The position numbers and the translations under genes were made by a program. The notes below the pieces were generated by a model. The model had not been told where the DNA came from and searched no databases. It was given only the letters and a program-made list of their open reading frames with translations. Below are positions 8,873 to 24,564 of a stretch of 64,000 bases of DNA, one piece after another. Position 1 is the stretch's first letter, and every line of letters starts with the position of its first letter. Source of the stretch: Paenibacillus sp. MBLB1832 (GTDB lineage: Bacteria > Bacillota > Bacilli > Paenibacillales > NBRC-103111); the NCBI RefSeq assembly GCF_032271945.1, contig NZ_CP130319.1:3491001-3555000 (forward strand), written 5' to 3'.

Positions 8873-9385
8873 TTATAAATATTTCTGCTCCGCCACGTTC
8901 AAATGGTGCTGAGCATGACCAGCGATTACGAATGCAATCGCACGGGCTGAAATTCGAAATGTATTCGCTGTGCCAAAACGCGTCCATGCTTCGTCTGCAA
9001 TCGTCGGCAGCAATGCGCGCGTCGCTTGTCGTACAGCTTGGAAATCTTGAATAAGATCCTTCAACGCCACCCCATCGAAGTTCGAATGGGCAATGAAAAC
9101 ATCTTGATCGAAGCCTGGCAGATCTGTCTGATCGCCGCGGGCAATTCGCAGCAGTCTATAGCTCATTATTCGTTCTGTGTCCGTGATATGACCAAGAACC
9201 TCTTTCAAACTCCACTTGCCTGGCGCATAACCTGAAAGCGCCTGCTCTTCCTGTAAGGAGGAGAACATCGCAACAAGAGCCTTCTCCTGCTCGTCCAAAA
9301 TGGACACATAATCCCCTTCTGGAACTACTTGGATGTACCCCGTATAAAAGGATGCATATTCGTCTTGACCTGGTCGTTGCAGCAT
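8873..9385 (-). CDS. DinB-family four-helix metalloprotein
   Basis: A 170-residue DinB/YfiT-like protein. The metal triad of the fold is visible: H66 in EVLGHITDTE and H157/H161 in IAGHAQHHLNVAE. The family includes bacillithiol- and mycothiol-dependent transferases as well as members with no known reaction. The ATG follows GAGAGGAG. It lies 69 bases downstream of the alpha-galactosidase gene on the same strand with no clear terminator between, so it may be co-transcribed. The substrate is unknown. Confidence 0.82.
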   Translation of the reverse strand: MLQRPGQDEYASFYTGYIQVVPEGDYVSILDEQEKALVAMFSSLQEEQALSGYAPGKWSLKEVLGHITDTERIMSYRLLRIARGDQTDLPGFDQDVFIAHSNFDGVALKDLIQDFQAVRQATRALLPTIADEAWTRFGTANTFRISARAIAFVIAGHAQHHLNVAEQKYL

Positions 9386-11731: not shown

Positions 11732-12019
11732 TTAACCGAACTTGTACGTCATGCCATGACCGCCCTTCGGATACACCCAATCAATATTGTACGAAGGGCA
11801 CGCAATCCGACAAGTCCCGCATTCAATACAATTTTCATAGGCGACCGTCGTAATTTTCAATTTTTTCTCCCACTCATACACATCCGAGGGACAGAAATAG
11901 TTACAGTCTTTGGTAACACAATTTAAGCAAGTTTGTGTATCTTTGATCACGAGGTGGGATTTATCATCGCATTTGTAACGAATGGTGAACAATCTATCTG
12001 AAATTCCGTTTTGGCTCAT
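11732..12019 (-). CDS. fixX: FixX ferredoxin-like protein
   Basis: A 95-residue ferredoxin-like partner of the Fix/Etf-quinone oxidoreductase complex. A 4Fe-4S motif CIECGTCRIACP is clear near the C-terminus, with a second partial cysteine cluster CLNCVTKDCNYFCP before it. The start codon overlaps the fixC stop (ATGA at 12016-12019), so translation is coupled. The frame is open six codons upstream, but those lie inside fixC. Established role: relays electrons between FixC and quinone or low-potential carriers. Confidence 0.92.
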   Translation of the reverse strand: MSQNGISDRLFTIRYKCDDKSHLVIKDTQTCLNCVTKDCNYFCPSDVYEWEKKLKITTVAYENCIECGTCRIACPSYNIDWVYPKGGHGMTYKFG

Positions 12020-13326
12020 CCGTTCATCGCCCTCCATCCCTTATAGCCCAGCTTCATCAGGTTCATGGTGCCGCCTGCTGCGTTCTTGATGAGCTTCATG
12101 GCCATTTTCTGCTTCTCGGCTTTCGTAATTCCGTCCACTAGGAACATGTTGTAGGCTGCTTCATTCACGGCCCGCGGCAAACGATCAAACAGTAGTTCAG
12201 GATCCTGCTCTTTCAGGAATTGATGCATGCCTTTGTACTTCTGCAAATCCTTGTGTACGAATGATGCCCGAATCTTGTTATCGTAAATGTGCATCGTAGG
12301 CGCAGAGAAATCTCCGCGCGCTTTTGCTTCAATAATCGCTTCCCCTGCCAAGCGGCCAGAGGTCATCGCGAGATTCGTCCCCTCCCGGTGGACAAAGTTC
12401 ACTAGCTGCGCAGCATCCCCGCAAACACACCACCCATCGCCAGATAATGTGGGCATCGAGTGGAAGCCGCCTTCAGGAATTAAGTGTCCTGAATACTCCT
12501 TCGTCTCTCCGCCTTGAATCAACTTGCGAATCATCGGATGCTGCTTAACTGCGTCGAGCACGGCATAAGGCTTGATCCTTTTATCCCGCAAATGATTGAC
12601 CATCACGCCGACGCCTAAGGAGATAGTTTCTTTATTCGTATAGAGGAAGCCCATGCCCGCCATGCCGAGCGAGGTTTCGCCCATGAATTCAATGGTGACC
12701 CCTTCGTCGCCTTCGAGACCGAAGCGATCCTCAATTTTCTCCCGAGGAAGCGCAATGACTTCTTTTACAGCCAAAGATACCTCATCCGGCATCCATTCTT
12801 TATGAATCCCCATCGCCTTGCCCAGCAAGGAATTCACGCCATCCGCGATGACAACAACGTCCGCATACAAATCGCCGTCATCCCGATCCGTCCGAACGCC
12901 GACGACTTTATTGCCTTCGCGAATCACGTCAAGCGCGACGGTTTCATAGATGGGAATCGCGCCAGCGGCAACGGCTTTTTCGGCAAACCATTGATCAAAT
13001 TTGACACGCAGGCCAGTGAAGCAATTGTAGGGCTCTTTGTACGCCTCGTTGCGATGGCCGAAGGTAACCATCGATTCCTTGCCCATCATCCAGATTCGCT
13101 GCTCAACAATGTAGCGCTCCATGGGAAAGTTTTTTTCTGTCCAAAACTCAGGGACAAGCTCCTCAATCTGTTTGCGATAGAGGACGCCGCCGAATATATT
13201 TTTGGCGCCAGGAAACTCGCCTCTTTCCAGCAAAACAACGGATAGGCCCGCTCTTGCCATGGTCAGCGCCGCCGCCGCTCCGGCGGGGCCGCCGCCAACG
13301 ACGATGGCATCCCATTTCTCATTCAT
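12016..13326 (-). CDS. fixC: FixC flavoprotein (Etf-quinone oxidoreductase-like)
   Basis: A 436-residue FAD protein of the ETF-QO/FixC family. The N-terminal dinucleotide fold is VVGGGPAGAAAALTMARAG followed by E35 (LLERG), and a second FAD contact is CGDAAQLVNFVHREGTNLAM. It receives electrons from FixAB and reduces quinone together with FixX. It starts with an ATGA overlap on fixB (13323-13326) and ends with an ATGA overlap on fixX, the usual tight fix operon order. Confidence 0.92.
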   Translation of the reverse strand: MNEKWDAIVVGGGPAGAAAALTMARAGLSVVLLERGEFPGAKNIFGGVLYRKQIEELVPEFWTEKNFPMERYIVEQRIWMMGKESMVTFGHRNEAYKEPYNCFTGLRVKFDQWFAEKAVAAGAIPIYETVALDVIREGNKVVGVRTDRDDGDLYADVVVIADGVNSLLGKAMGIHKEWMPDEVSLAVKEVIALPREKIEDRFGLEGDEGVTIEFMGETSLGMAGMGFLYTNKETISLGVGVMVNHLRDKRIKPYAVLDAVKQHPMIRKLIQGGETKEYSGHLIPEGGFHSMPTLSGDGWCVCGDAAQLVNFVHREGTNLAMTSGRLAGEAIIEAKARGDFSAPTMHIYDNKIRASFVHKDLQKYKGMHQFLKEQDPELLFDRLPRAVNEAAYNMFLVDGITKAEKQKMAMKLIKNAAGGTMNLMKLGYKGWRAMNG

Positions 13327-14465
13327 TTCGCTTCACTCCTCTCGCGTGTGGCGGTCGATTCGGATTCCGTAGGTGCAGCGGATAATGAGTCCTTATCCGA
13401 AGGAGGTTGGATGCCGAAAAGCGTCCGACGTTTTTTGAATTCTGCTGTGATCGCTGGCACAATTTTGAAGAGATCACCAACCAAGCCATAGTGAGCGAAT
13501 TGAAAAATAGGTGCATTCTCGTCGCGGTTGATCGCAACAACGACATCCGCGTTGCTCATGCCGACCGTATGCTGCACGGCGCCAGAGATGCCGATGGCAA
13601 AGTACAGCTTCGGCCGCACCGTCGCGCCCGTTTGCCCCACTTGATGCTCATGGGAGATCCACCCCGCATCCACGGCAGCGCGCGACGCGCCAACGACACC
13701 GCCGAGCGCGTCCGCCAGCTCGGCGAGCAGCCCAAAGGCGTCGGGCCCGCCCAGCCCGCGGCCGCCAGCGACGATAATCTCGCATTCTTCGAGATTGAGC
13801 TTGCCTGTTTCGCGCAGGAATTCGAGCACCTGCGCGTCAATCTCTTCCTCGCGCATCGTCGCCTCGATGCGCACGATCTCGCCTTGGCGCGCTGCGTCCT
13901 TCGGCAGCGCCTGAAATACGCCGGCGCGCGCTGTCGCCATCTGCGGCCGGTACTGTTTACAGAGGATGGTGGCCATCATCTTCTCAGAGAAAGCCGGCCG
14001 GCTGGCCAGCAGCAGCCGCGATGGATGCGGTTCGACATCGAGCTGCGTCGTGTCGGCCGTCAGCCCTGTCGGCAGGTGCGTTGCGATCGCACCTGCTAGA
14101 TCACGGCCCGTCGCGGTCGCGCCGAACAGCACGATCTCGGGCTTCGCATCCTCGATCAGCTTCAAGCAGACCCGGCTGTAAGGCCGGGTCCTATAATCGC
14201 GAAGCTCGGGAGCTTCGCAGAGATACACCCGGTCGGCGCCGTAGTGCACGGCTTCCTCGGCGAGATGTGCGACATTCTCGCCGAGGACGAGCGCCATGAG
14301 CGGCGCCTCCAGCTTCGCGGCCAGCTTCTTGCCCTCACCTAGCAGCTGCCAGGACACCTTTTTCGCTATGCCTTCGCGCTGCTCTACTACTATCAACACC
14401 CCTCGATATGCCGACCAATCCGGCATCGATGGATCTATTTGCTCAGTTGACTGTTCCTTTGCCAT
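13323..14465 (-). CDS. fixB: FixB/EtfA electron transfer flavoprotein alpha subunit
   Basis: A 380-residue EtfA-type subunit. The C-terminal FAD domain is well conserved: AGGRGLGG, GASRAAVDAGWI, GQTGATVRPKLYFAIGISGAVQH and VAINRDENAPIFQFAHYGLVGD. In the heterodimer with FixA it takes electrons from NADH and, in Fix-type complexes, bifurcates them to quinone and to ferredoxin or flavodoxin. The central part of the gene (about 13560-14300) is far richer in GC than its neighbours. It starts 24 bases after fixA and overlaps fixC by four bases. Confidence 0.92.
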   Translation of the reverse strand: MAKEQSTEQIDPSMPDWSAYRGVLIVVEQREGIAKKVSWQLLGEGKKLAAKLEAPLMALVLGENVAHLAEEAVHYGADRVYLCEAPELRDYRTRPYSRVCLKLIEDAKPEIVLFGATATGRDLAGAIATHLPTGLTADTTQLDVEPHPSRLLLASRPAFSEKMMATILCKQYRPQMATARAGVFQALPKDAARQGEIVRIEATMREEEIDAQVLEFLRETGKLNLEECEIIVAGGRGLGGPDAFGLLAELADALGGVVGASRAAVDAGWISHEHQVGQTGATVRPKLYFAIGISGAVQHTVGMSNADVVVAINRDENAPIFQFAHYGLVGDLFKIVPAITAEFKKRRTLFGIQPPSDKDSLSAAPTESESTATRERSEAK

Positions 14466-14489
14466 CGTGTCACCCTCCGTTCCTCTCGA

Positions 14490-15323
14490 TCAAGCCCAAT
14501 CCAACAGGGTCTGCATGTCCTTCGTTAATAGCTGATCAGCGAGCTGAGCTGCCGCTGCTTCTGGACTATCGTATGTGATCATTTTCGTCTTCACTGCTTT
14601 GACTTCGGGCACCCACGTTTTCGCGACAATCGTTGGCGAGCCTTTGAGCCCAATCTTGGCACGTTCAAGATCTGGGAAATCCGCTGTCGTCCAAACCGTT
14701 GGCTTATAGCGAGCCGCTCGAATCATGCCTGGCAACGAAGCACGTCTGACCTTGTTTAATTCCTTCAACGCTGTAATTAGCACGGGCATGCTTGTCTCAA
14801 CGACTTCAATGCCATCCTCCAACAATCGGTGAACACGTACTTTCCGATTCTCTTCATCGACTTTCTCCACTTTATTGACATACGTCAGCTGTTCCAAATC
14901 TAATCGGCAAGCAACACCAGGACCTACTTGTCCCGTATCGCCGTCTAGCGTCTGTTTCCCGCAAAACACGATATCCACGTGTCCCCATGTTTCCGCGATT
15001 TTACGAATCGTTCGGGCCACAACATACGACGTTGCCAGCGTATCAGCGCCTGCGAAGCCACGGTCTGTGACGAGGACAGCATCATCTGCGCCAAGCGAAA
15101 TGCATTCCTTTAGTCCCTTTTCCGCTGGCGGTGGACCCATTGTAACGACTGTGATGCGCGCTCCTTGCTCATCTTTGATGCGAAGCGCCTCTTCTAAGCC
15201 ATGCATATCATAGAAATTCACAATGCTGGGGACACCTTGGCGAATGAGCGTATTATTCTTGGGATCGATGCGAATTTCTCGGGAATCTGGAACTTGTTTA
15301 ATACACACAACAATATGCAGCAT
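14490..15323 (-). CDS. fixA: FixA/EtfB electron transfer flavoprotein beta subunit
   Basis: A 277-residue EtfB-type subunit, first gene of fixABCX. It begins LHIVVCIKQVPDSREIRID and contains the nucleotide-site stretch FCGKQTLDGDTGQVGPG, both characteristic of the family. The ATG follows AGGAGGG. About 310 bases of non-coding DNA upstream hold a Crp/Fnr-type palindrome. In nitrogen fixers the complex supplies low-potential electrons to nitrogenase; no nif gene lies in this window. Confidence 0.93.
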   Translation of the reverse strand: MLHIVVCIKQVPDSREIRIDPKNNTLIRQGVPSIVNFYDMHGLEEALRIKDEQGARITVVTMGPPPAEKGLKECISLGADDAVLVTDRGFAGADTLATSYVVARTIRKIAETWGHVDIVFCGKQTLDGDTGQVGPGVACRLDLEQLTYVNKVEKVDEENRKVRVHRLLEDGIEVVETSMPVLITALKELNKVRRASLPGMIRAARYKPTVWTTADFPDLERAKIGLKGSPTIVAKTWVPEVKAVKTKMITYDSPEAAAAQLADQLLTKDMQTLLDWA

Positions 15324-15572: not shown

Positions 15573-15597
15573 AGAAAAAGACTGCCCATTGGACAGC
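15573..15597 (-). terminator. terminator after cmoJ
   Basis: Read on the minus strand: CTGTCC, loop AAT, GGGCAG (one G-T pair), then TCTTTTTCTTG. It lies about 40 bases past the cmoJ stop and closes the sulfur operon. Confidence 0.65.
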
Positions 15598-15635
15598 CAT
15601 AAACTAATTGTCATATCACGAAAAAAATGAACTGA

Positions 15636-16970
15636 TCACTCAGCAGCTACGGCTGCTTTCTTCGTATACCGATTCACCGGAACTGGAACCCCCAGATTCC
15701 CGCGCAGCGTATCCGCTTCGTATTCCGTCCTGTACAACCCACGCTCTTGCAGAATCGGCACGACGAGATCAACGAAGTCGTCAAGCCCTTTCGGCAAGGC
15801 AGCCGCGATGATAAATCCATCTGCCGCATTTTCTTCGAACCACGCTTGTACGCGATCTGCGACATACTCAGGTGTTCCCGTAAACTCATTACGAGGCGTT
15901 GCCACACTCAATGCCACTTGGCGCAGCGTAAGGTTTTTCTCTTTGGCTGTTTGCTTGATTTTATCCGTACCACTGCGGAAGCTATTGCTGCCGAACTCTC
16001 CTAATTCTGGGAATGGCTCATCCAACGGATATTGGGAGAAATCGTGATGTTCGAAGAATCGACCTAAGTAATCCAGCGCCTTATCAATGGTCACTAAACT
16101 TGCGACTTCTTGATATTTGCGCTCTGCTTCTTCTTCTGTACGGCCAATAATCGGGGCAATGCCCGGTAAAATAACGACTTCATCCGGATTGCGTCCTTCG
16201 GAGGCTACTCGCTTTTTAATATCCGCATAGTACGCTTTCGCCTCTTCAATTGTCTCATGTCCTGCAAAAATTGCATCCGCCACTTTCGCTGCAAACGCCC
16301 GACCATCCTCAGACGCACCCGCTTGGAAGATTACTGGCTGACCTTGTCTGGAACGAGCGATATTCAGGGGACCCTGCACGGAGAAATATTCGCCTTTATG
16401 GTTCAAGGTATGCAGCTTGCTTGGGTCGAAAAACACGCCGCTCTCCTTATCACGAACGAACGCATCATCTTCCCAGGAATCCCATAGTCCGCGGGTCACT
16501 TCCAAATATTCGTTCGCAATGCGATATCGTTCTGGGTGCGAAGGATGTTCGGCTTTGCTGTAGTTTTTCGCTGAACCTTCCAGCGGAGAGGTCACTACGT
16601 TCCAACCAGAACGTCCATCACTGATCAAATCAATGGAGGCAAATTGCCTAGCCACGGTGAACGGCTCACTGTACGAAGTGGATAACGTGCCTACCAATCC
16701 AATATGCGAGGTGACCGAAGCCAAGGCGGAAAGAATAGTAATCGGCTCAAACCGATTGAGAAAATGAGGTATTGATTTTTCCGTTATATACAGGCCGTCC
16801 GCAATGAAAACAAGATCGAATTTGCCTGATTCGGCTTTCTGCGCCTGCTGTTTATAAAAGCCAAAATTCACACTCGCATCCGTAATCGCCTCAGGATGTC
16901 TCCATCCCGACACATTTCCGCCTACGCCATGAATGATGGCGCCTAATTTCAGTTGTTTTTGTTTAGCCAT
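15636..16970 (-). CDS. cmoJ: luciferase-like monooxygenase, CmoJ/YtnJ type
   Basis: Flavin-dependent monooxygenase of the NtaA/SnaA/DszA group, 444 residues. It shows the family N-terminus [18 protein letters not shown] and the conserved stretch [21 protein letters not shown]. In B. subtilis the homologue CmoJ (YtnJ) oxidatively cleaves the C-S bond of N-acetyl-S-alkylcysteines; it is assigned here by family and by the operon context. ATG 16970 is preferred over the ATG four codons earlier because GGAG lies 6-7 bases before it. Last gene of the block, 16 bases after snaA. Confidence 0.83.
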
Positions 16971-16986
16971 TGTCTTCTCCATCCTT

Positions 16987-17517
16987 TCACAATATCGCTG
17001 CAGTCTGAATGTGTAACCGATAGCTTTTCACGAGAATCTCGCCTTTTTGAATATCTTTGTCATATGCGCGCTCGAAACCCAACCGTTCATAAAGCTTCAC
17101 AGCCGATTCCATCATGTCCGAGGTGTGTAAATGCAGGGTATCTGCCCCTAACTCGACGGCGCGTTTTATATTTTCTTTAATCAGCGCTGTTGCGATGCCT
17201 CTTCCTCTTGCACTTGGCGAAACTGCTAATAATCGAAGAATGGGAGACTCGATCTCTAGCTCTGGCGCGCCATATGCGGCCTCGGACGATTGGAACAATT
17301 GCGAGCTCCCGACAACTTCATCATCAATCAGCGCTATAATCCGCGCGATGGGCTTTGCGCTATCCACAGATGCGATAATATTTTCTTTATATTGATCCCA
17401 GCCTTCTGGAGGCAGGACAGCGCGATATTGGTCATAGGCATCTTCCAGCACTCTTCGAATCGCTTCACGGTCACTATCCTTCGCTTCCCGAATGTGTACT
17501 TCTCTTGCATCCGCCAT
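16987..17517 (-). CDS. snaA: GNAT N-acetyltransferase, SnaA/YtmI type
   Basis: A 176-residue GNAT with the acetyl-CoA loop [19 protein letters not shown] (motif A, R-G-R-G-I-A) and a C-terminal [11 protein letters not shown]. Its position between the M20 deacetylase, DinB and monooxygenase genes matches YtmI (SnaA), which N-acetylates S-alkylcysteines before C-S cleavage. The name rests on context, since GNATs are hard to assign by motif alone. It lies 13 bases after the DinB gene. Confidence 0.78.
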
Positions 17518-17530
17518 GCGCTAATCCTCC

Positions 17531-18007
17531 TTATTCACGCGATTCTAACGCGCTTTTGATTCGTGCGATTTGTGCCAAATGAACCTGCACATGAGAGACA
17601 AAGGACTGAACAACATCCGTTAATGTGAGCGTTTGTCCTTTGACATTTACGCCCGTTTTGTTCCAATCGTCAGGTGATAACCGTTCGAACAAAGCATGGT
17701 TATACACTAATAACGACTGAAATAGGACTAAAATATCGGAAGCTAAGCCTTCATTGGCTTTGGCGCTGCTTACCCATGGATCTTGGTCAAAGGCTGGCAA
17801 TTGGGCTGATGCCCCTGAAATAATGGCGCGTATTCGAAAGGAAACGACGATATTATGATCGGCCAAATGAGACAGTACCTCGGTTACGCTCCATTTATCT
17901 GGTGCTGGCTTCCAAGTCAATTGACCTTTGTTCAATCCTTGAATTGCTTCCTGCAGTTGTTGATGCGTGTATAAATAGGCTGACAAATCGGGGATCGTTA
18001 AACTCAT
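17531..18007 (-). CDS. DinB-family protein inside the S-alkylcysteine operon
   Basis: A 158-residue four-helix DinB/YfiT-fold protein with the complete metal triad: H47 in EVLSHLADHN and H139/H143 in SHVQVHLAQI. Its ATG overlaps the upstream M20 stop (18004-18007), so it is an integral member of the operon. DinB-fold enzymes include thiol-S-transferases (BstA with bacillithiol), which would fit cysteine-thioether chemistry, but no reaction is shown. The B. subtilis ytmI operon has no such gene. Confidence 0.82.
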   Translation of the reverse strand: MSLTIPDLSAYLYTHQQLQEAIQGLNKGQLTWKPAPDKWSVTEVLSHLADHNIVVSFRIRAIISGASAQLPAFDQDPWVSSAKANEGLASDILVLFQSLLVYNHALFERLSPDDWNKTGVNVKGQTLTLTDVVQSFVSHVQVHLAQIARIKSALESRE

Positions 18008-19191
18008 GTTGATACCTCCAATGGGGTGTCGGATGATAAATTAAGTAGTGCTTTCTCTGCTAAAATGGCAAAATATCGCGCGCTAATCGGCAACGCCCGC
18101 TCATCGATATCGAACCCAGGATGATGCCACTCTTGCGGACCCGAAGTGCCCATAAAGACGAAGACACCGGGAATTTGCTTCTGGTAAAAAGCGAAATCTT
18201 CCCCTGCAGGTGATGGCACAGGTGTAATCACTTGAAGACCCGTTTGTTCGGCTGCCTCTGAGGCTAACTGCGCGAAAGCCTGATCATTGAACACCGATGG
18301 CGGTCCCTTGATCCATCGAACCGTAGCTTTTGTTCCATAAGCTGCAGCTACGCCTTGTACAACCTGTTCCATCCGCTTGATAACAAGGTTTCGGACACTC
18401 TCTTCAAACGTGCGGAGCGTGCCATCCAGGATGGCCTTCTCGGGGATCACATTCCAAGCTGTCCCGCTATGGATACGTGTCACACTAATTACCGCACTTT
18501 CAAGAGAGGAGATGTTGCGGCTAACGATCGATTGAAGCGCGGTCACAATGTGTGCGCCTGTCACAATCGGATCTATTCCTGCTTCTGGAACTGCCGCATG
18601 CGTGCCAGTCCCTTCAACCTCGATCACAAATCCGTCCGCAGCCGCCATTAAAGGACCCGCTTTGATGCCGATTGTTCCAACGGGGAGATCTGGCTTATTA
18701 TGCATGCCATAAATCACGCTCACCCCTTCAAGTGCACCGCTGCGTATGACTTGCTCTGCGCCTTGTGCTTTCTCCTCAGCGGGTTGAAAAATAAATCGAA
18801 CCGTTCCCTTGAGATCTTGTTCCTGCCCCTTTAGCAAGAGGGCTGCACCCAATACGGCTGCTGTATGAAAATCATGTCCGCACGCATGCATCTTGCCTGG
18901 AACTTGCGACGCGAAAGGAAGGCCTGTTTCTTCATGTATAGGCAGGGCATCAATGTCGGCTCGAATAGCTACAATCGGTCCTGCATGCAAGCCGCCTACC
19001 TCGGCGATGAGCCCTGTTTGGAGTTGATAATCAGTAATACGAATTTCTGCTTCCGTGAGCCAGTCACGAATCGCAGCGGTCGTTTGTACCTCCTCATGCG
19101 ATAATTCAGGAAAACGATGCAAATGACGTCGGAACTCTACCAGCTTCTGAGCAAAATCCTCGGACATCTGTATGGAAGCGTGTAGACTCAT
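18004..19191 (-). CDS. sndA: M20-family amidohydrolase, SndA/HipO type N-deacetylase
   Basis: A 395-residue metal-dependent amidohydrolase. The M20D signature is clear: RADIDALPI, HACGHDFHT (metal ligands C104 and H106) and FQPAEEKAQGA (catalytic and metal glutamates E139/E140). It ends with the metal-ligand histidine region WHHPGFDIDE. SndA removes the N-acetyl group from cysteine derivatives after monooxygenase action. ATG 19191 follows AGGAGGAAG; the frame is open nine codons upstream without a better site. It overlaps the DinB gene by four bases. Confidence 0.83.
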   Translation of the reverse strand: MSLHASIQMSEDFAQKLVEFRRHLHRFPELSHEEVQTTAAIRDWLTEAEIRITDYQLQTGLIAEVGGLHAGPIVAIRADIDALPIHEETGLPFASQVPGKMHACGHDFHTAAVLGAALLLKGQEQDLKGTVRFIFQPAEEKAQGAEQVIRSGALEGVSVIYGMHNKPDLPVGTIGIKAGPLMAAADGFVIEVEGTGTHAAVPEAGIDPIVTGAHIVTALQSIVSRNISSLESAVISVTRIHSGTAWNVIPEKAILDGTLRTFEESVRNLVIKRMEQVVQGVAAAYGTKATVRWIKGPPSVFNDQAFAQLASEAAEQTGLQVITPVPSPAGEDFAFYQKQIPGVFVFMGTSGPQEWHHPGFDIDERALPISARYFAILAEKALLNLSSDTPLEVST

Positions 19192-19218
19192 CCCTCTTCC
19201 TCCTTCAAATCTGTCCAC

Positions 19219-20229
19219 TTATACATGCAATTCCGTGAAGGCTTCACTCAACAGTTCAAACGAACGCAATCGTTTGCTAAAATCCTTGACTGATGTTGTG
19301 ACGATAAATTCGTCAATCCGATATTTCTTCTGAAGCTCCAGAAGCTTCTGACGTACGGTTTCCTTCGTACCGCGCGTTATTTCTGCTTGCTTCTCTTCAA
19401 CCGTGAATTTGGCTTGTGTTTGGCGGCCGTATTCCTCCGCCTGTTCCAGTGTGCCAACGGTTAAGGTTTTACCATTTTCCAAATGAATCTTGACGTTCTT
19501 ATATTCACCTGCGAGTTCGTTAGCCTCTTCATCTGTGTCCGCGACAATTAGTGAAAGAGCCAAGATTAGATTAGGTTGAGTGCCTTTGTCTGGATTGAAA
19601 TGGTGATAATAGGATTCAAACGCCGCTTCCGCAATCGCCTGATCGCCATTAATGAATTGCGCGAAAACGTACGGCAATCCCGCTTCAGCCGCCGATTGCG
19701 CACTTGCCGCGCTCGCACCGAGGACATAAATATCCACAGGAACAGTAGGAATTGGCGAGACGCGCAACCCTTTTAAAGGATGCTTGTCGTGGATTTGATT
19801 TTTCACAAATTGCTGAAGATCCTCTAATTTATCTGCTAAGGATGCTGCTTCGGTAATGCCCTGCTGCAGCGCTTTGGTTGAACGAGGCAATCCGCCAGGT
19901 GCACGGCCAATCCCCAAATCTACCCTGCCTGGAGCAAGGGAAGCCAGCACATTGAAATTCTCAGCCACCTTATAGGGGCTGTAATGCTGCAGCATAATGC
20001 CGCCGGAGCCAATGCGAATTCGGTTTGTTTTAGCTAGTAAATGTGAAATTAGAACCTCAGGTGAAGAGCCCGCTACCTGCTCGGAATCATGATGCTCAGA
20101 AACCCAGAATCGGTGATACGATAACGACTCTGCCCTCTGAACAAGCTCGATTGTATGCTGAAAAGCGTCATAAGCGGTTTCGCCAGGAAACACGACACTT
20201 TGATCCAAAATGCTCAATTTAATCCCCAT
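19219..20229 (-). CDS. cmoO: luciferase-like oxidoreductase, CmoO/YtmO type
   Basis: A 336-residue LLM-class flavin oxidoreductase of the MsnO8/YtmO subgroup. It begins IKLSILDQSVVFPGETA and contains HHDSEQVAGSSPEVLI and GRVDLGIGRAPGG, typical of the group. In the B. subtilis operon YtmO (CmoO) works beside CmoJ on S-alkylcysteine breakdown. ATG 20229 follows GGAG at a nine-base spacing. It lies between the ABC ATPase gene and sndA; the order tcyN-cmoO is the same as in B. subtilis. Confidence 0.8.
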   Translation of the reverse strand: MGIKLSILDQSVVFPGETAYDAFQHTIELVQRAESLSYHRFWVSEHHDSEQVAGSSPEVLISHLLAKTNRIRIGSGGIMLQHYSPYKVAENFNVLASLAPGRVDLGIGRAPGGLPRSTKALQQGITEAASLADKLEDLQQFVKNQIHDKHPLKGLRVSPIPTVPVDIYVLGASAASAQSAAEAGLPYVFAQFINGDQAIAEAAFESYYHHFNPDKGTQPNLILALSLIVADTDEEANELAGEYKNVKIHLENGKTLTVGTLEQAEEYGRQTQAKFTVEEKQAEITRGTKETVRQKLLELQKKYRIDEFIVTTSVKDFSKRLRSFELLSEAFTELHV

Positions 20230-20263
20230 GTTCGAACACTCCATTTCCTGATCTGACTTACAG

Positions 20264-21016
20264 CTAGATGTTGTAACTCCATTCGGGCGTAATGCGCTTC
20301 AAGAATTGTCTTGTCCGTTCTTCCTTGGCCGCGCTGAAAATCTCCCTCGGCTTGCCTTCCTCAACGATGACGCCTTGATCCATAAAGACCACATGATTAG
20401 CTACTTCACGGGCAAAGCCCATCTCATGGGTGACGATAATCATCGTGATGCCTTCTTTGGCAATCTTCTGAATGACATCGAGCACCTCGCCAACAAGTTC
20501 CGGATCCAGTGCAGATGTCGGTTCATCGAACAGGATGACCTCAGGATTTAATGCCAGCGCACGCGCAATGCCTACACGCTGCTGCTGTCCGCCAGACAGT
20601 TGGCTTGGATAAGCATCCAATTTGCCTCCCAATCCGACTTTCTCCAGCACCTTCACGCTGACTTCTCTTGCCTGTTCCTTCGGCTGTTTCTGGACGATGA
20701 CGAGCCCTTCCATGACGTTTTCGAGCACCGTTTTATGTTTGAACAAATTGTAATGTTGGAACACCATCGCTGATTTTTGACGAAGCGCGTGAATCTCCAC
20801 TTTGCTGGGCCGCTTGCAATTCACTGTGAAATCCCCAATCTTCACTTCGCCGAGATTCGGCTTTTCCAAATAGTTCAAGCAACGAAGCAACGTCGTTTTT
20901 CCTGAACCGCTGGGGCCAAGAATACAGACGACTTCTCCTTTTTGCACTGTCAGATTAATCCCTTTCAGCACTTCGTTCTTCCCGAACGACTTGGTGATAT
21001 TCGTCAGTTGAATCAT
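20264..21016 (-). CDS. tcyN: amino-acid ABC transporter ATPase, TcyN type
   Basis: A 250-residue polar-amino-acid ABC ATPase. Walker A is GPSGSGKTT, the Q loop [10 protein letters not shown], the signature LSGGQQQR, Walker [12 protein letters not shown], and the H loop VTHEMGF. It powers the importer whose two permeases overlap upstream. It is assigned to cystine/S-alkylcysteine uptake from operon context. Its start overlaps tcyM by four bases. Confidence 0.88.
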
Positions 21017-21723
21017 GATACGCCACCTCGGTTAAACAGATTGATTCGTTTCTCTAGTAAGCCAGTGGCTCTTTCAATAAGGAAAGTGATTCCCCAGAAC
21101 AGCAGTGCAGCTGCAATATAAGCTTCGAAAAACTTCCAGTTCGTCGTCGCCACAATTTGTGCCTTTGCGTTAATTTCTACGACAGATACTGTGAATGCCA
21201 ATGTAGAGCCGTGCAGCATGCCAATGAGTGTATTGGACAAATTCGGTAAGCTAACAGCCAACGCTTGTGGCAAAATAATGCGGCGAAGCGCCTGCGGTGT
21301 CGTCATGCCGATCGAATAGGCAGCTTCAATTTGCCCCCGATTAATTGCGACAATGCCTGATCTCACAACCTCGGAGAGGTAAGCTCCAGCTGTAATGGAG
21401 AAGGAGAGAAAAGCAAACCCAATCATCGGTATGGAAACGGAACGGAAGCTCCAACCGAAGGCGGCAGCGATCCCGTCAATCACCATAGGCAATCCGAAAT
21501 AAATGAGCAGTAAATGCATTAACATCGGCGTACCGCGAACAAATGTTACATATGCCGTTGCGAGATAATGAATATAAGGCACGCGGTATAGTCGGATTAA
21601 AGCGACGGATGCGCCGATAATACATCCAAAAAAGACAGAAACCACAGTAATCAACAGTGTCGTCGGCAGAGCGGACAGTAATTGAACAAAGGCCGTCCAG
21701 ATGAATTCAAGATCGATACTCAT
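21013..21723 (-). CDS. tcyM: amino-acid ABC transporter permease, TcyM type
   Basis: A 236-residue inner-membrane permease of the HisM/GlnP family with five or six helices and the EAA-loop region [23 protein letters not shown]. It overlaps tcyN and tcyL by four bases on either side, which couples translation. It forms the heterodimeric channel of the cystine-type importer with TcyL. Confidence 0.87.
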
Positions 21724-22496
21724 GCTTGGAAGCCCCCTTTATCTGGCTGCGTTGATGGGATGCCTTTGAACCAGCGGCGTGATAGCGGTTGACGCGCTTC
21801 GGTGACAAGCGGTTGCTCGTGTTGCAGCAAGCGTTTCTCCACGTACATGAACAGCTTTTCTAGACCGAAGCAAATGATGAAATAAATGATCGATAAGGAA
21901 ATGTACGTTTCCATAAAATGCTGGGTAGCCGAACCGAGCGTCTGCGCTTTGCCCATCAATTCCATCGCACCTAGGGAGAAAGCGAGCGACGTATCCTTCA
22001 AGTTCGCAATGAGCAGATTCGTAAAATTAGGCAGCGAGATGGCCAATGCTTGCGGCATTATAATTCGCGTAAAGGCTTGATAACCTGTCATGCCTACGGA
22101 ATAGGCCGCCTCTACTTGCCCTCTGTCCACAGCCTTGACCGCTGCGCGAATGACTTCCGAAATATAGGCGCCCGAATGCAGCGCGAATGTCAGAATGACA
22201 AAGGTCAACACAGGAGCTTTCGACACATCCACATGAATCGACTTCAACATTTCGGGAAGTCCGTAGTAAATCAGAAACAGTTGAATAAGAATCGGGGTCC
22301 CGCGAAAAAAGGATACATAAATCTGTGATAACCGCTGCAGCACAGGTATTTGATAAAGCCGGGGGAGCGCAATGAGAAATCCAATGACGATCCCCAGCCC
22401 CATCGAACAGGCAACAATGAATAATGAAATGGGAATGTAGTTCAGTAGTTTTGGTAAAAAATCGAATACATAGGTGATATCGAATTGGGTTGCCAT
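21720..22496 (-). CDS. tcyL: amino-acid ABC transporter permease, TcyL type
   Basis: A 258-residue permease with the EAA loop VEAAYSVGMTGYQAFTRIIMPQA, paralogous to the adjacent permease. The family N-terminal helix is followed by RLSQIYVSFFRGTPILIQLFLIYYG. It lies 39 bases downstream of the binding-protein gene and overlaps the next gene. It forms the transmembrane channel with TcyM. Confidence 0.87.
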   Translation of the reverse strand: MATQFDITYVFDFLPKLLNYIPISLFIVACSMGLGIVIGFLIALPRLYQIPVLQRLSQIYVSFFRGTPILIQLFLIYYGLPEMLKSIHVDVSKAPVLTFVILTFALHSGAYISEVIRAAVKAVDRGQVEAAYSVGMTGYQAFTRIIMPQALAISLPNFTNLLIANLKDTSLAFSLGAMELMGKAQTLGSATQHFMETYISLSIIYFIICFGLEKLFMYVEKRLLQHEQPLVTEARQPLSRRWFKGIPSTQPDKGGFQA

Positions 22497-22535
22497 AATG
22501 GCGATCTCACCTTTCTTAGCATCATGTAGGTTGAT

Positions 22536-23420
22536 CTAGTCTTTTTTCGTAAAGTCTCCGCCCAGCCACTGTGTGCTTAACTTCGAGAGTGTGCCATCCG
22601 CTTTGACAGCTTTCAAGGCTACGTCAATTTTGTCTGCAAGTTCTTGCCCGTCTTTATCATTTTTGCGGAATAGGAAACGAACCTCAGCTTCTTCAATGAT
22701 CGGTCCAACCGCTTTAAGTTTGCTTTGCGGGTCTACCAGCGGAAGCAAGAAATCCGCCCCAAGCGAACCATCCACACGTCCTGTTGTAAGCTGTGTAACC
22801 AAATCATTGGCTGCGCCGCTTTGATACACGATTTTGATCGCATTATCATGTGCCTTGTTATAGTTCTCCAGCAAAGTAGCTTCAGCGCTTGTGGCCGTCG
22901 TTAGTGCTTTCTTCCCTTTCAAATCATCGATCGATTGAATGGTTGTATTATCCTTGGCAACAATAACTTTGGTTTTCCAATATGCATACGGTTCATTGTT
23001 GAACAAATATTTTTGTTCTCTTTCTTTGTTTTTCTCAATTTCATGTGCGACGAAATCAATTTTGTTCGTCTCCAAGCTAAGCAGCAGGTTGGCGAAATCC
23101 ATCGTTTTAAACTCGAATTCATAATCTGGTAACCGTTTATCCAGCTCTTTCACTAGTTCAATATCATACCCCGTCAACTTGCCGTCTTTATCTAAAAAGG
23201 CTACATTCGGAAATTGCGTCCCCGTGCCCACGATAATTTTCTTCACTTTGACAGGTGCCGCTGTTGCAGCTGCTGTTGTTGCCGTACTTGCCGCTGGTGC
23301 TTTCGTCACCTCTGCAGCTGCCTTCGGGGATGCGTCCGTCGTTGCACTTTTGGAGCCGCAGCCTGCTACCACTAAAGCTAAAGTTACTGTTGTTACCGCT
23401 AGTGTTGTGAATTGTTTCAT
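22536..23420 (-). CDS. amino-acid ABC transporter substrate-binding lipoprotein, TcyJ/TcyK type
   Basis: A 294-residue lipoprotein: signal peptide with lipobox LVVAGC (C21), an alanine/threonine-rich linker (about 22-55), then a family-3 solute-binding domain (VGTGTQFPNVAFLDKDGKLTGYDIELVKEL). ATG 23420 follows TTTGGAGGGG; the frame open upstream has no such site. B. subtilis has two paralogous binding proteins here (TcyJ, TcyK); this operon has one. Substrate is likely cystine or S-alkylcysteine, inferred from context. Confidence 0.87.
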   Translation of the reverse strand: MKQFTTLAVTTVTLALVVAGCGSKSATTDASPKAAAEVTKAPAASTATTAAATAAPVKVKKIIVGTGTQFPNVAFLDKDGKLTGYDIELVKELDKRLPDYEFEFKTMDFANLLLSLETNKIDFVAHEIEKNKEREQKYLFNNEPYAYWKTKVIVAKDNTTIQSIDDLKGKKALTTATSAEATLLENYNKAHDNAIKIVYQSGAANDLVTQLTTGRVDGSLGADFLLPLVDPQSKLKAVGPIIEEAEVRFLFRKNDKDGQELADKIDVALKAVKADGTLSKLSTQWLGGDFTKKD

Positions 23421-23482
23421 TGTGAACCCCTCCAAATTTCCCGTTTTTATAATTCTTATAATTCCTACTTGTTTTGTATGAA

Positions 23483-23542
23483 TCATAGCTATGACAATAA
23501 TTTATCATGGAGTTCACGAACTGGATAATAGAGTTTTTCTAT
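23483..23542. promoter_or_regulatory. candidate LysR operator region for the sulfur operon
   Basis: In the 137-base gap between the regulator gene and the binding-protein gene, 23528-23542 is an inverted repeat ATAGA-N5-TCTAT that fits the LysR T-N11-A rule. A separate perfect palindrome TCATAGCTATGA lies at 23483-23494. Both are candidate sites for the LysR regulator encoded immediately upstream. Confidence 0.45.
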
Positions 23543-23557
23543 ATCCATATCGAGAAG

Positions 23558-24454
23558 TCAAATCGGTTCCCGAATCGATTGGGCAATCCCTTTGCACAAA
23601 TCTAAAGCAGCGTTGAAAAATAAGCCATTCTCGCCGTTTAATGCGATCATGTTCGTTTGCAGCGAAATACCAGCGATTTCGGGGAATTGAATCGGAAACA
23701 GCTTCCCTTCCTTCACTTCCTGTTCCACACATAGGCTAGGCAGAAAGGCGATGCCAACGCGCCCCAGCACTAATTTTTTCGCTGTTTCCAGCGTATCCGT
23801 CTGAAATTCGATATTCGGCGGCTGGCTCATGCTCGCAAATAAGCGATGAATTCGCATCCAATCGAGCGACCCGCACTCGAAGAAAACAAGCGGATACTCC
23901 CCAATATCATTCATCGAAATCATATGGTTCCCAATAAACGGATGCCCTTCATACACATAAAGACGAATTGGATCCTCATACGCTTTGGCGGAGAGCAGAT
24001 TCGGGTGACTAATATTTCGCACAAATCCGATATCTAACTCCCGATTTAAAACTTTGTTAATGATCTCCTCGGACGCGGCCGTTGTCAGCTTATAGTTGAC
24101 ATCGGGGTATTTGTTCTTCAGTTTCGGAAGAATTGTTGGGATGATATAGTTAGACACCGATACCGTACAGCCTACTCGCAGTTCGTTGGGCAGTGTCCGC
24201 TTTTGCTTTAATTGAATTTTACTCTTCTGAAAAGTTTGCAGTAACTGCTGCGCATACGGCAGAAACTTCTTCCCATCGTCGGTCAAGGAGATCTGTTTCC
24301 CGATTCGTTCGAAAAGCCGACAATCCAGCTCACGTTCGAGGGATTGGATGCGGGCAGTCACAGATGGCTGGGATAAAAAAAGCACTTCTGCCGCTTTGTT
24401 GAAACTGCCATAATGAATGACATAAACAAAGGCTTCGATATTCTCGATGTTCAA
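23558..24454 (-). CDS. LysR-family regulator, YtlI/AscR-like position
   Basis: A 298-residue LysR-type regulator: N-terminal winged helix-turn-helix (FVYVIHYGSFNKAAEVLFLSQPSVTARIQSLE) and a C-terminal periplasmic-binding-like effector domain. It lies directly upstream of the cystine/S-alkylcysteine operon in the same orientation; in B. subtilis YtlI holds the equivalent role of activating ytmI in response to sulfur source. The ATG is poorly supported by the GGGGG-type site (GGGGGAAT). The orthology itself cannot be settled without a tree. Confidence 0.83.
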   Translation of the reverse strand: MNIENIEAFVYVIHYGSFNKAAEVLFLSQPSVTARIQSLERELDCRLFERIGKQISLTDDGKKFLPYAQQLLQTFQKSKIQLKQKRTLPNELRVGCTVSVSNYIIPTILPKLKNKYPDVNYKLTTAASEEIINKVLNRELDIGFVRNISHPNLLSAKAYEDPIRLYVYEGHPFIGNHMISMNDIGEYPLVFFECGSLDWMRIHRLFASMSQPPNIEFQTDTLETAKKLVLGRVGIAFLPSLCVEQEVKEGKLFPIQFPEIAGISLQTNMIALNGENGLFFNAALDLCKGIAQSIREPI

Positions 24455-24564
24455 TGGGATTCCCCCAATCCGTTAATCCGAGGACTAAACTTATTATTCC
24501 GATTAAAAAACTTGGTTTAATGTTGGTATAACTATAGATCAACACGAATCATGTGTCAATACAC

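Follow-up and report, generated by a model that had tools for sequence, protein, structure and literature searches.

A DinB-fold gene in an S-alkylcysteine salvage operon

What does a DinB-fold protein do in an operon for S-alkylcysteine salvage? The question is raised by a 64,000-nucleotide stretch of the Paenibacillus sp. MBLB1832 genome (here called the window), in which ten open reading frames at positions 15636 to 24454, all on the minus strand, form one apparent transcription unit in the order LysR, solute-binding protein, TcyL, TcyM, TcyN, CmoO-like, M20, DinB_2, GNAT and CmoJ-like. The initial annotation had recognized a ten-gene salvage operon here, and this identification held: all ten frames are open, and Pfam and NCBIfam place them in the families named, several NCBIfam scores, that of TcyN included, being under the curated cut-off. 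By family and similarity, the operon thus combines CmoO-type and CmoJ-type flavin monooxygenases, a GNAT acetyltransferase, an M20 deacetylase and a Tcy importer. The DinB gene (17531..18007, minus strand; STL superfamily) was likewise correctly placed between an SndA-like M20 gene and a SnaA-like GNAT gene, with a four-base overlap between the M20 end at 18004 and the DinB start at 18007. We propose, giving the proposal about an even chance, that this protein, one of a CmoO-linked group, is a metal- and bacillithiol-dependent S-transferase, a standing member of CmoO/CmoJ-type S-alkylcysteine salvage operons that takes over from the glutaredoxin-like CmoI.

Group A DinB genes are linked to salvage operons

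In a family sample of 104 genomes, the 64 best DinB matches, the window's own included (at least 147 bits, 45 to 100% identity), were taken as group A, a working group cut by score more than a proven clade. These 64 proteins are encoded in 61 genomes, and a CmoO gene of at least 48% identity lies within 20 kb of 63 of them; three family genomes (G007, G077 and G082) have CmoO but no group A DinB. A second set, which overlaps the family set, was drawn from genomes with names (Paenibacillus, Cohnella, Brevibacillus and two Bacillus-labelled records), where the best 80 of 169 loci were kept. At all 80 of these, CmoJ, CmoO, M20 or TcyN lies nearby on the same strand (singly, CmoJ at 76, TcyN at 71, CmoO at 69, M20 at 67 and GNAT at 49). 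In a class sample of 398 genomes, where the searches scored at most nine DinB and five CmoO candidates per genome, so that second copies can be missing, group A comprised 22 matches of at least 178 bits; the copy of the related group B in the window's own genome passes this score, with 181 bits, but was left out. All 20 group A-score loci examined in this sample stand in such a context, 18 of them with CmoO or Tcy genes and 2 (L210 and L211) otherwise. After removal of overlaps, 115 of 163 loci are distinct group A loci besides that of the window. Gene order around DinB varies greatly among loci, while the linkage persists.

More distant DinB genes behave differently. Of the next 29 matches (106 to 133 bits), 20 were used as controls, the top 16 included, and none has close CmoJ, CmoO, M20 or Tcy genes, some having only generic ABC (ATP-binding cassette), LysR and M20 matches of 25 to 34%. 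The contrast between 80/80 named loci and 0/20 distant genes led us to reject a chance insertion of DinB, and its membership of the S-alkylcysteine salvage pathway is well supported. A role in the SOS response was rejected as well; the name DinB is historical, from SOS/DNA repair, and group A stays beside sulfur genes.

Some loci carry additional genes. At L094, L210 and L211, CmoO is missing and group A DinB has as neighbors a CE1758-type luciferase-like monooxygenase and an Opp-type importer, a context that possibly represents a third pathway for the group. A flavin adenine dinucleotide (FAD) amine-oxidase-like gene is often found near DinB (24 of 80 family loci; between M20 and DinB in L201 to L209), and the copy at L057 exceeds the cut-off of the N-methyltryptophan oxidase model. 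At L067 (12519-13067), an OsmC-like protein adjoins a second luciferase-type monooxygenase, the OsmC cluster being found at 7 of 80 family loci.

DinB and CmoI alternate at CmoO loci

No glutaredoxin-like CmoI was found in the window above 23.5 bits or in its own genome at E ≤ 1e-6. The intergenic gaps from TcyN to CmoJ measure 0 to 19 bases, and there is therefore no extra gene, such as CmoI, among them. At class-level CmoO loci without group A DinB, of which there are 47, two small open reading frames proved to be a glutaredoxin-like protein (PF00462); its gene is present at 18 of the 20 loci examined, and we equate it with CmoI (Bacillus subtilis YtnI). CmoI was absent from all group A loci examined (63, 80 and 20 loci), the best stray match reaching 26.6 bits. 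With a limit of 15 kb, the 67 CmoO loci of the class sample comprise 20 with DinB only, 36 with CmoI only, none with both and 11 with neither (Fisher P = 1.5e-9, relatedness ignored). The exclusion operates at the level of the locus: seven class genomes hold both genes at separate loci, and the family genomes G070 and G093 have a strong CmoI together with group A DinB, on other contigs.

We then placed the two labels on trees of the quick kind. The CmoO tree (84 labelled rows, picked by label, and 2 unlabelled ones, a CmoO match of 300 residues being required for inclusion) shows seven changes between DinB and CmoI, at least four of which are forced by well-supported branches, and the CmoJ tree shows five, at least three of them forced by starred branches. 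DinB likely stands in for CmoI in these operons.

CmoO loci with neither gene

Two of the 11 loci with neither gene, in G361 and G125 (genus g47), encode a YfiT/BstA-family protein straight after GNAT. The G361 protein scores 221.5 bits, the value also obtained for the YfiT substitute in L260, against a family cut-off of 160, and the G125 copy shares 93% identity with the G361 protein. On the DinB tree, this substitute is far from group A, on long branches, and a second DinB-fold transferase therefore seems to have reached the same place independently. Among the other loci, G289 carries what looks like a truncated CmoI, the remnant of an amine-oxidase gene separates M20 from CmoJ in G494, which has a group A DinB elsewhere, the G230 contig ends just past CmoO, G247 has CmoI on another contig than its CmoO locus, and G161, G308, G339 and G190 have CmoO relatives of just 45 to 47% identity. 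In the family sample, 8 of 72 CmoO loci are without group A DinB within 20 kb, namely, those of G077, G082, G050 C38 and G007 (a 68% complete genome) and second loci in G051, G037, G093 and G046; at G050 C38 there is no DinB between M20 and GNAT, and the operon is partly decayed.

Several of these results qualify an exchange of DinB for CmoI. G224 has no substitute gene within 12 kb and neither DinB nor CmoI elsewhere in its genome, and G077 and G082, with otherwise intact clusters, have no substitute in the stretch examined and neither gene elsewhere. This counts against the step being indispensable, and the existence of intact operons with neither gene indicates that it may be dispensable. 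In addition, an independent-pairs sign test on the CmoO tree gave three supported pairs and was not significant (P = 0.25); given this value and the picking of rows by label, the exclusion is suggestive, not significant once relatedness is corrected for.

The related group B and the link to CmoO

Group B consists of the next 12 family matches and L117, added for context (37 to 47% identity), and includes the copy in the window's own genome at G000:C1:4143567. Four of 80 family loci (L114, L115, L116 and L118) belong to neither group; L115 carries group B-like coenzyme A (CoA)-transferase genes, its CmoJ match being just 27%. The group B cluster contains at least one CmoJ-like gene, an Opp-type importer, genes for two CoA-transferase subunits, a protein of about 200 residues (cluster 16, no Pfam match), a CaiB-type transferase and, last, DinB (e.g., L103, at G000:C1:4134567-4153016), and looks like a breakdown route for a sulfur-containing acid. 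CmoJ lies within 15 kb at 13/13 group B loci and CmoO at 0/13. Among 95 family CmoJ clusters (listed matches with identities down to about 66%; weaker or unlisted ones were not used), group A occurs in 61 of the 67 with CmoO and in none of the 28 without, while group B occurs in 13 of the 28 without CmoO and in none of the 67 with it. On the DinB tree, groups A and B come together (support 90, no star) and B alone has a support of 98 with a star; two group A rows, L101 and L218, do not join the main A branch but sit at the base without clear placement.

Fold, metal site and host thiol

The three metal ligands named in the initial annotation are all present, since H47, H139 and H143 of the window DinB align in sequence with H67, H160 and H164 of B. 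subtilis YfiT (numbering as in PMC5815605). These histidines are kept in 64/64 family group A proteins, and cysteine is absent from 63/64, the window protein included. The latter has the DinB four-helix fold but scores only 56.4 bits against the YfiT family model NF009807, under the curated cut-off of 160.

Bacillithiol synthesis was judged from the BshC gene alone. This gene is present in 104/104 family genomes, the window's own included, and was rejected as a discriminator within the family, as it provides no contrast. In the class sample, BshC was found in 31 of 36 strong CmoI-only genomes, the other five being G108, G132, G160, G194 and G373, and in two of three weaker CmoI genomes. None of the five strong CmoI genomes without BshC has a CmoO match at E ≤ 1e-85, and the class-level comparison therefore says little.

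A proposed bacillithiol transferase in place of CmoI

CmoO is reported to form N-acetyl-S-alkylcysteine sulfoxide, from which CmoJ yields an aldehyde and N-acetylcysteine sulfenic acid, followed by reduction and deacetylation (PMC10863075); in the portion of that article considered here, no reductant is named. YtnL and two relatives deacetylate N-acetylcysteine (PMC12757645). In the window operon, the Tcy transporter would import S-alkylcysteine, GNAT would acetylate it, CmoO would make the sulfoxide, and CmoJ would free the alkyl part as an aldehyde, leaving N-acetylcysteine sulfenic acid. The DinB metal would then activate bacillithiol for attack on the sulfenic acid, giving an N-acetylcysteine-bacillithiol mixed disulfide, from which bacilliredoxin or more bacillithiol would free N-acetylcysteine for deacetylation to cysteine by the M20 enzyme. 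DinB probably resolves the sulfenic acid released by CmoJ; we infer the chemistry, namely, that this acid is its substrate, that the thiol used is bacillithiol and that the same step is carried out elsewhere by CmoI. Beside CmoO/CmoJ, the presence in turn of a glutaredoxin-like protein and of a bacillithiol transferase would fit a step of sulfenic-acid reduction. The basis for this proposal consists of the operon itself, the group-wide linkage, the locus-level exclusion of CmoI, the CmoO link, the YfiT/BstA-family stand-in in two genomes, the metal triad, the fold and the presence of BshC in carriers. The initial annotation, which had suggested a thiol-transfer or detoxification step, is partly supported: thiol transfer finds support, while substitution for CmoI fits better than an added detoxification.

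A different role, which we consider unlikely, would be the conjugation of electrophiles ahead of salvage, DinB joining bacillithiol to alkylating agents and an amidase then releasing S-alkylcysteine for the operon. BstA, the nearest characterized relative, does conjugate bacillithiol to electrophiles (PMC10950700, PMC5815605), and S-alkylcysteine is said to arise primarily from the S-alkyl glutathione of electrophile detoxification (PMC10863075). However, the operon's own importer points to external S-alkylcysteine, and no bacillithiol-conjugate amidase is found among the dozen annotated recurrent neighbor families, although no search was aimed at one. Such a role also predicts neither the locus-level exclusion with the glutaredoxin-like gene nor the tie to CmoO.

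The exclusion could instead reflect operon type, DinB and CmoI acting on different substrate-specific steps in operons tuned to different S-substituted cysteines. DinB-type operons often include further genes (for an FAD amine oxidase-like protein, a second GNAT or an Opp-type transporter), and the co-occurrence of both operon types in seven genomes would agree with this. The CmoO and CmoJ proteins of the two types nevertheless interleave on the trees described above, and the minimal operon of the window has none of those further genes, making this explanation quite unlikely. Capture of the CmoJ-released aldehyde (formaldehyde, benzaldehyde) by DinB as a bacillithiol adduct is improbable: one aldehyde is released per CmoJ turnover (PMC10863075) and the carriers tested have BshC, but aldehyde removal is not expected of a glutaredoxin-like protein, so the swap would be left unexplained. 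Finally, a metal carrier or structural partner of the M20 deacetylase, without thiol chemistry, would suit the three-histidine site, the near absence of cysteine from group A and the metal requirement of such deacetylases (PMC12757645), yet it is very improbable, as CmoI operons have a like M20 gene without DinB and the YfiT/BstA stand-in speaks for transferase chemistry.

In nature, one whole DinB-fold (STL) group of bacillithiol transferases might be dedicated to a single substrate, the CmoJ-made N-acetylcysteine sulfenic acid; this would be a small-molecule S-bacillithiolation in which a glutaredoxin is replaced by proteins without cysteine, a state arrived at on at least two occasions (by group A and by the YfiT/BstA protein), a broader claim that we hold tentatively, at somewhat less than an even chance. 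What the DinB-fold bacillithiol transferases of B. subtilis act on in nature was reported as unknown (PMC5815605), BstA/YfiT substrates were described as awaiting investigation (PMC10950700), and a B. subtilis strain with all eight enzymes deleted had no defect in growth under the stressors applied (PMC5815605). Both the operon type and the DinB-fold transferases were already known; a DinB group fixed in the operon and alternating with CmoI was not met with in the open-licence PMC papers searched, and among the matches listed there (titles and abstract starts) we found no role of DinB or CmoI in the salvage pathway. A group that is locked to one pathway and can be exchanged for a glutaredoxin-like gene provides a candidate substrate for DinB-fold transferases. 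Its occurrence at the glutaredoxin's place in Paenibacillus-related soil bacteria hints at what a large enzyme family may do in nature, and the swap also bears on how the CmoJ-made sulfenic acid gets reduced.

Operon layout and genomic context

The window belongs to a genome of 5.85 Mb in one contig, with 12 DinB_2 genes; its DinB is 90% identical to that of Paenibacillus pectinilyticus, placing the genome close to that species. All features of the operon are on the minus strand. The first gene, with a TTG start, encodes a LysR-family regulator (23558..24454) and is preceded by a sigma-70-like promoter, TTGACA-17-TATAGT (24531..24559; 11/12, consensus match only), while a terminator-like hairpin and T-run follow CmoJ (15580..15598; pattern match only). 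Over the region, there are 19 promoter-like matches against a shuffled mean of 13.3 (standard deviation, 3.7) and 11 terminator-like matches against a shuffled mean of 10.0. Control by an RNA element was rejected, Rfam giving no match above the gathering score in the window.

The importer genes encode an amino-acid (cystine-type) solute-binding protein (22536..23486), whose nearest solved relative is B. subtilis YtmK (2O1M), TcyL-like (21720..22496) and TcyM-like (21013..21723) ABC permeases and a TcyN-like ABC ATPase (20264..21016), for which the best model, L-cystine transporter TcyN, scores 355.7 bits against a cut-off of 406; four-base overlaps also occur at TcyL/TcyM and TcyM/TcyN. The CmoO-like luciferase-type monooxygenase (19219..20244) is above the cut-off of the MsnO8 family. 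The M20 amidohydrolase (18004..19218), an SndA/ScmP-like candidate N-acetylcysteine deacetylase, has YxeP/ScmP (1YSJ) as its nearest solved sequence, and the SnaA-like GNAT (16987..17517), proposed to N-acetylate S-alkylcysteine, had no PDB match at E ≤ 1e-6. The NtaA/CmoJ/ScmK-type flavin mononucleotide (FMN) monooxygenase (15636..16982), proposed to cleave the C-S bond, is equidistant from YtnJ/CmoJ (1TVL; 614.2 bits) and YxeK/ScmK (6ASK; 614.4 bits), and sequence therefore does not settle whether it belongs with the S-alkylcysteine or with the succinocysteine enzymes, although the CmoO gene in its neighborhood favors the former.

A second DinB_2 gene (8873-9385, minus strand), the genome's strongest PF12867 match, lies downstream at a distance of about 6 kb from the operon and adjoins a 729-residue open reading frame resembling, by eye, an alpha-galactosidase. 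DinB matches of 29 to 30% are found about 9.5 to 10 kb downstream of the operon DinB in four named relatives (L119, L121, L122 and L125). Directly downstream of the operon (12016-15323, minus strand), three open reading frames look by eye like a FixABC-type set of electron-transfer flavoproteins and recur at 4 of 80 family loci; this set might share electrons with the operon's flavin monooxygenases.

Comparison with known systems

The ytm/ytn S-alkylcysteine operon of B. subtilis, with the gene order snaA-tcyJKLMN-cmoO-cmoI-cmoJ-ribR-sndA, shares with the window LysR control, the Tcy importer, GNAT, CmoO, a CmoJ-type monooxygenase and the M20 deacetylase. The window operon differs in that CmoI, a flavokinase and a second binding protein are missing and DinB stands between M20 and GNAT. 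The parallel drawn in the initial annotation is thus one of gene content, not of exact order.

With the B. subtilis YfiT/BstA and other STL bacillithiol transferases, the window DinB shares the four-helix fold, the three metal histidines and BshC hosts, and YfiT/BstA is its best structural match. It nevertheless scores under the YfiT family cut-off, forms part of a separate group and has a fixed pathway context, whereas the natural substrates of BstA to BstH are not known. The CmoI-type glutaredoxin-like proteins occupy the same surroundings, beside CmoO/CmoJ, in operons without group A DinB, but their fold is unrelated to that of DinB and they have a CxxC motif of their own. The B. subtilis scm (yxe) operon for S-(2-succino)cysteine has in common with the window acetylation, an FMN monooxygenase, to which the window CmoJ is equally similar, and N-acetylcysteine deacetylation; the window adds CmoO, which is unused in the three-step scm pathway as outlined in PMC12757645. 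This sister pathway provides a precedent for replacement by an unrelated enzyme, as 2SL often replaces ScmK (PMC12757645).

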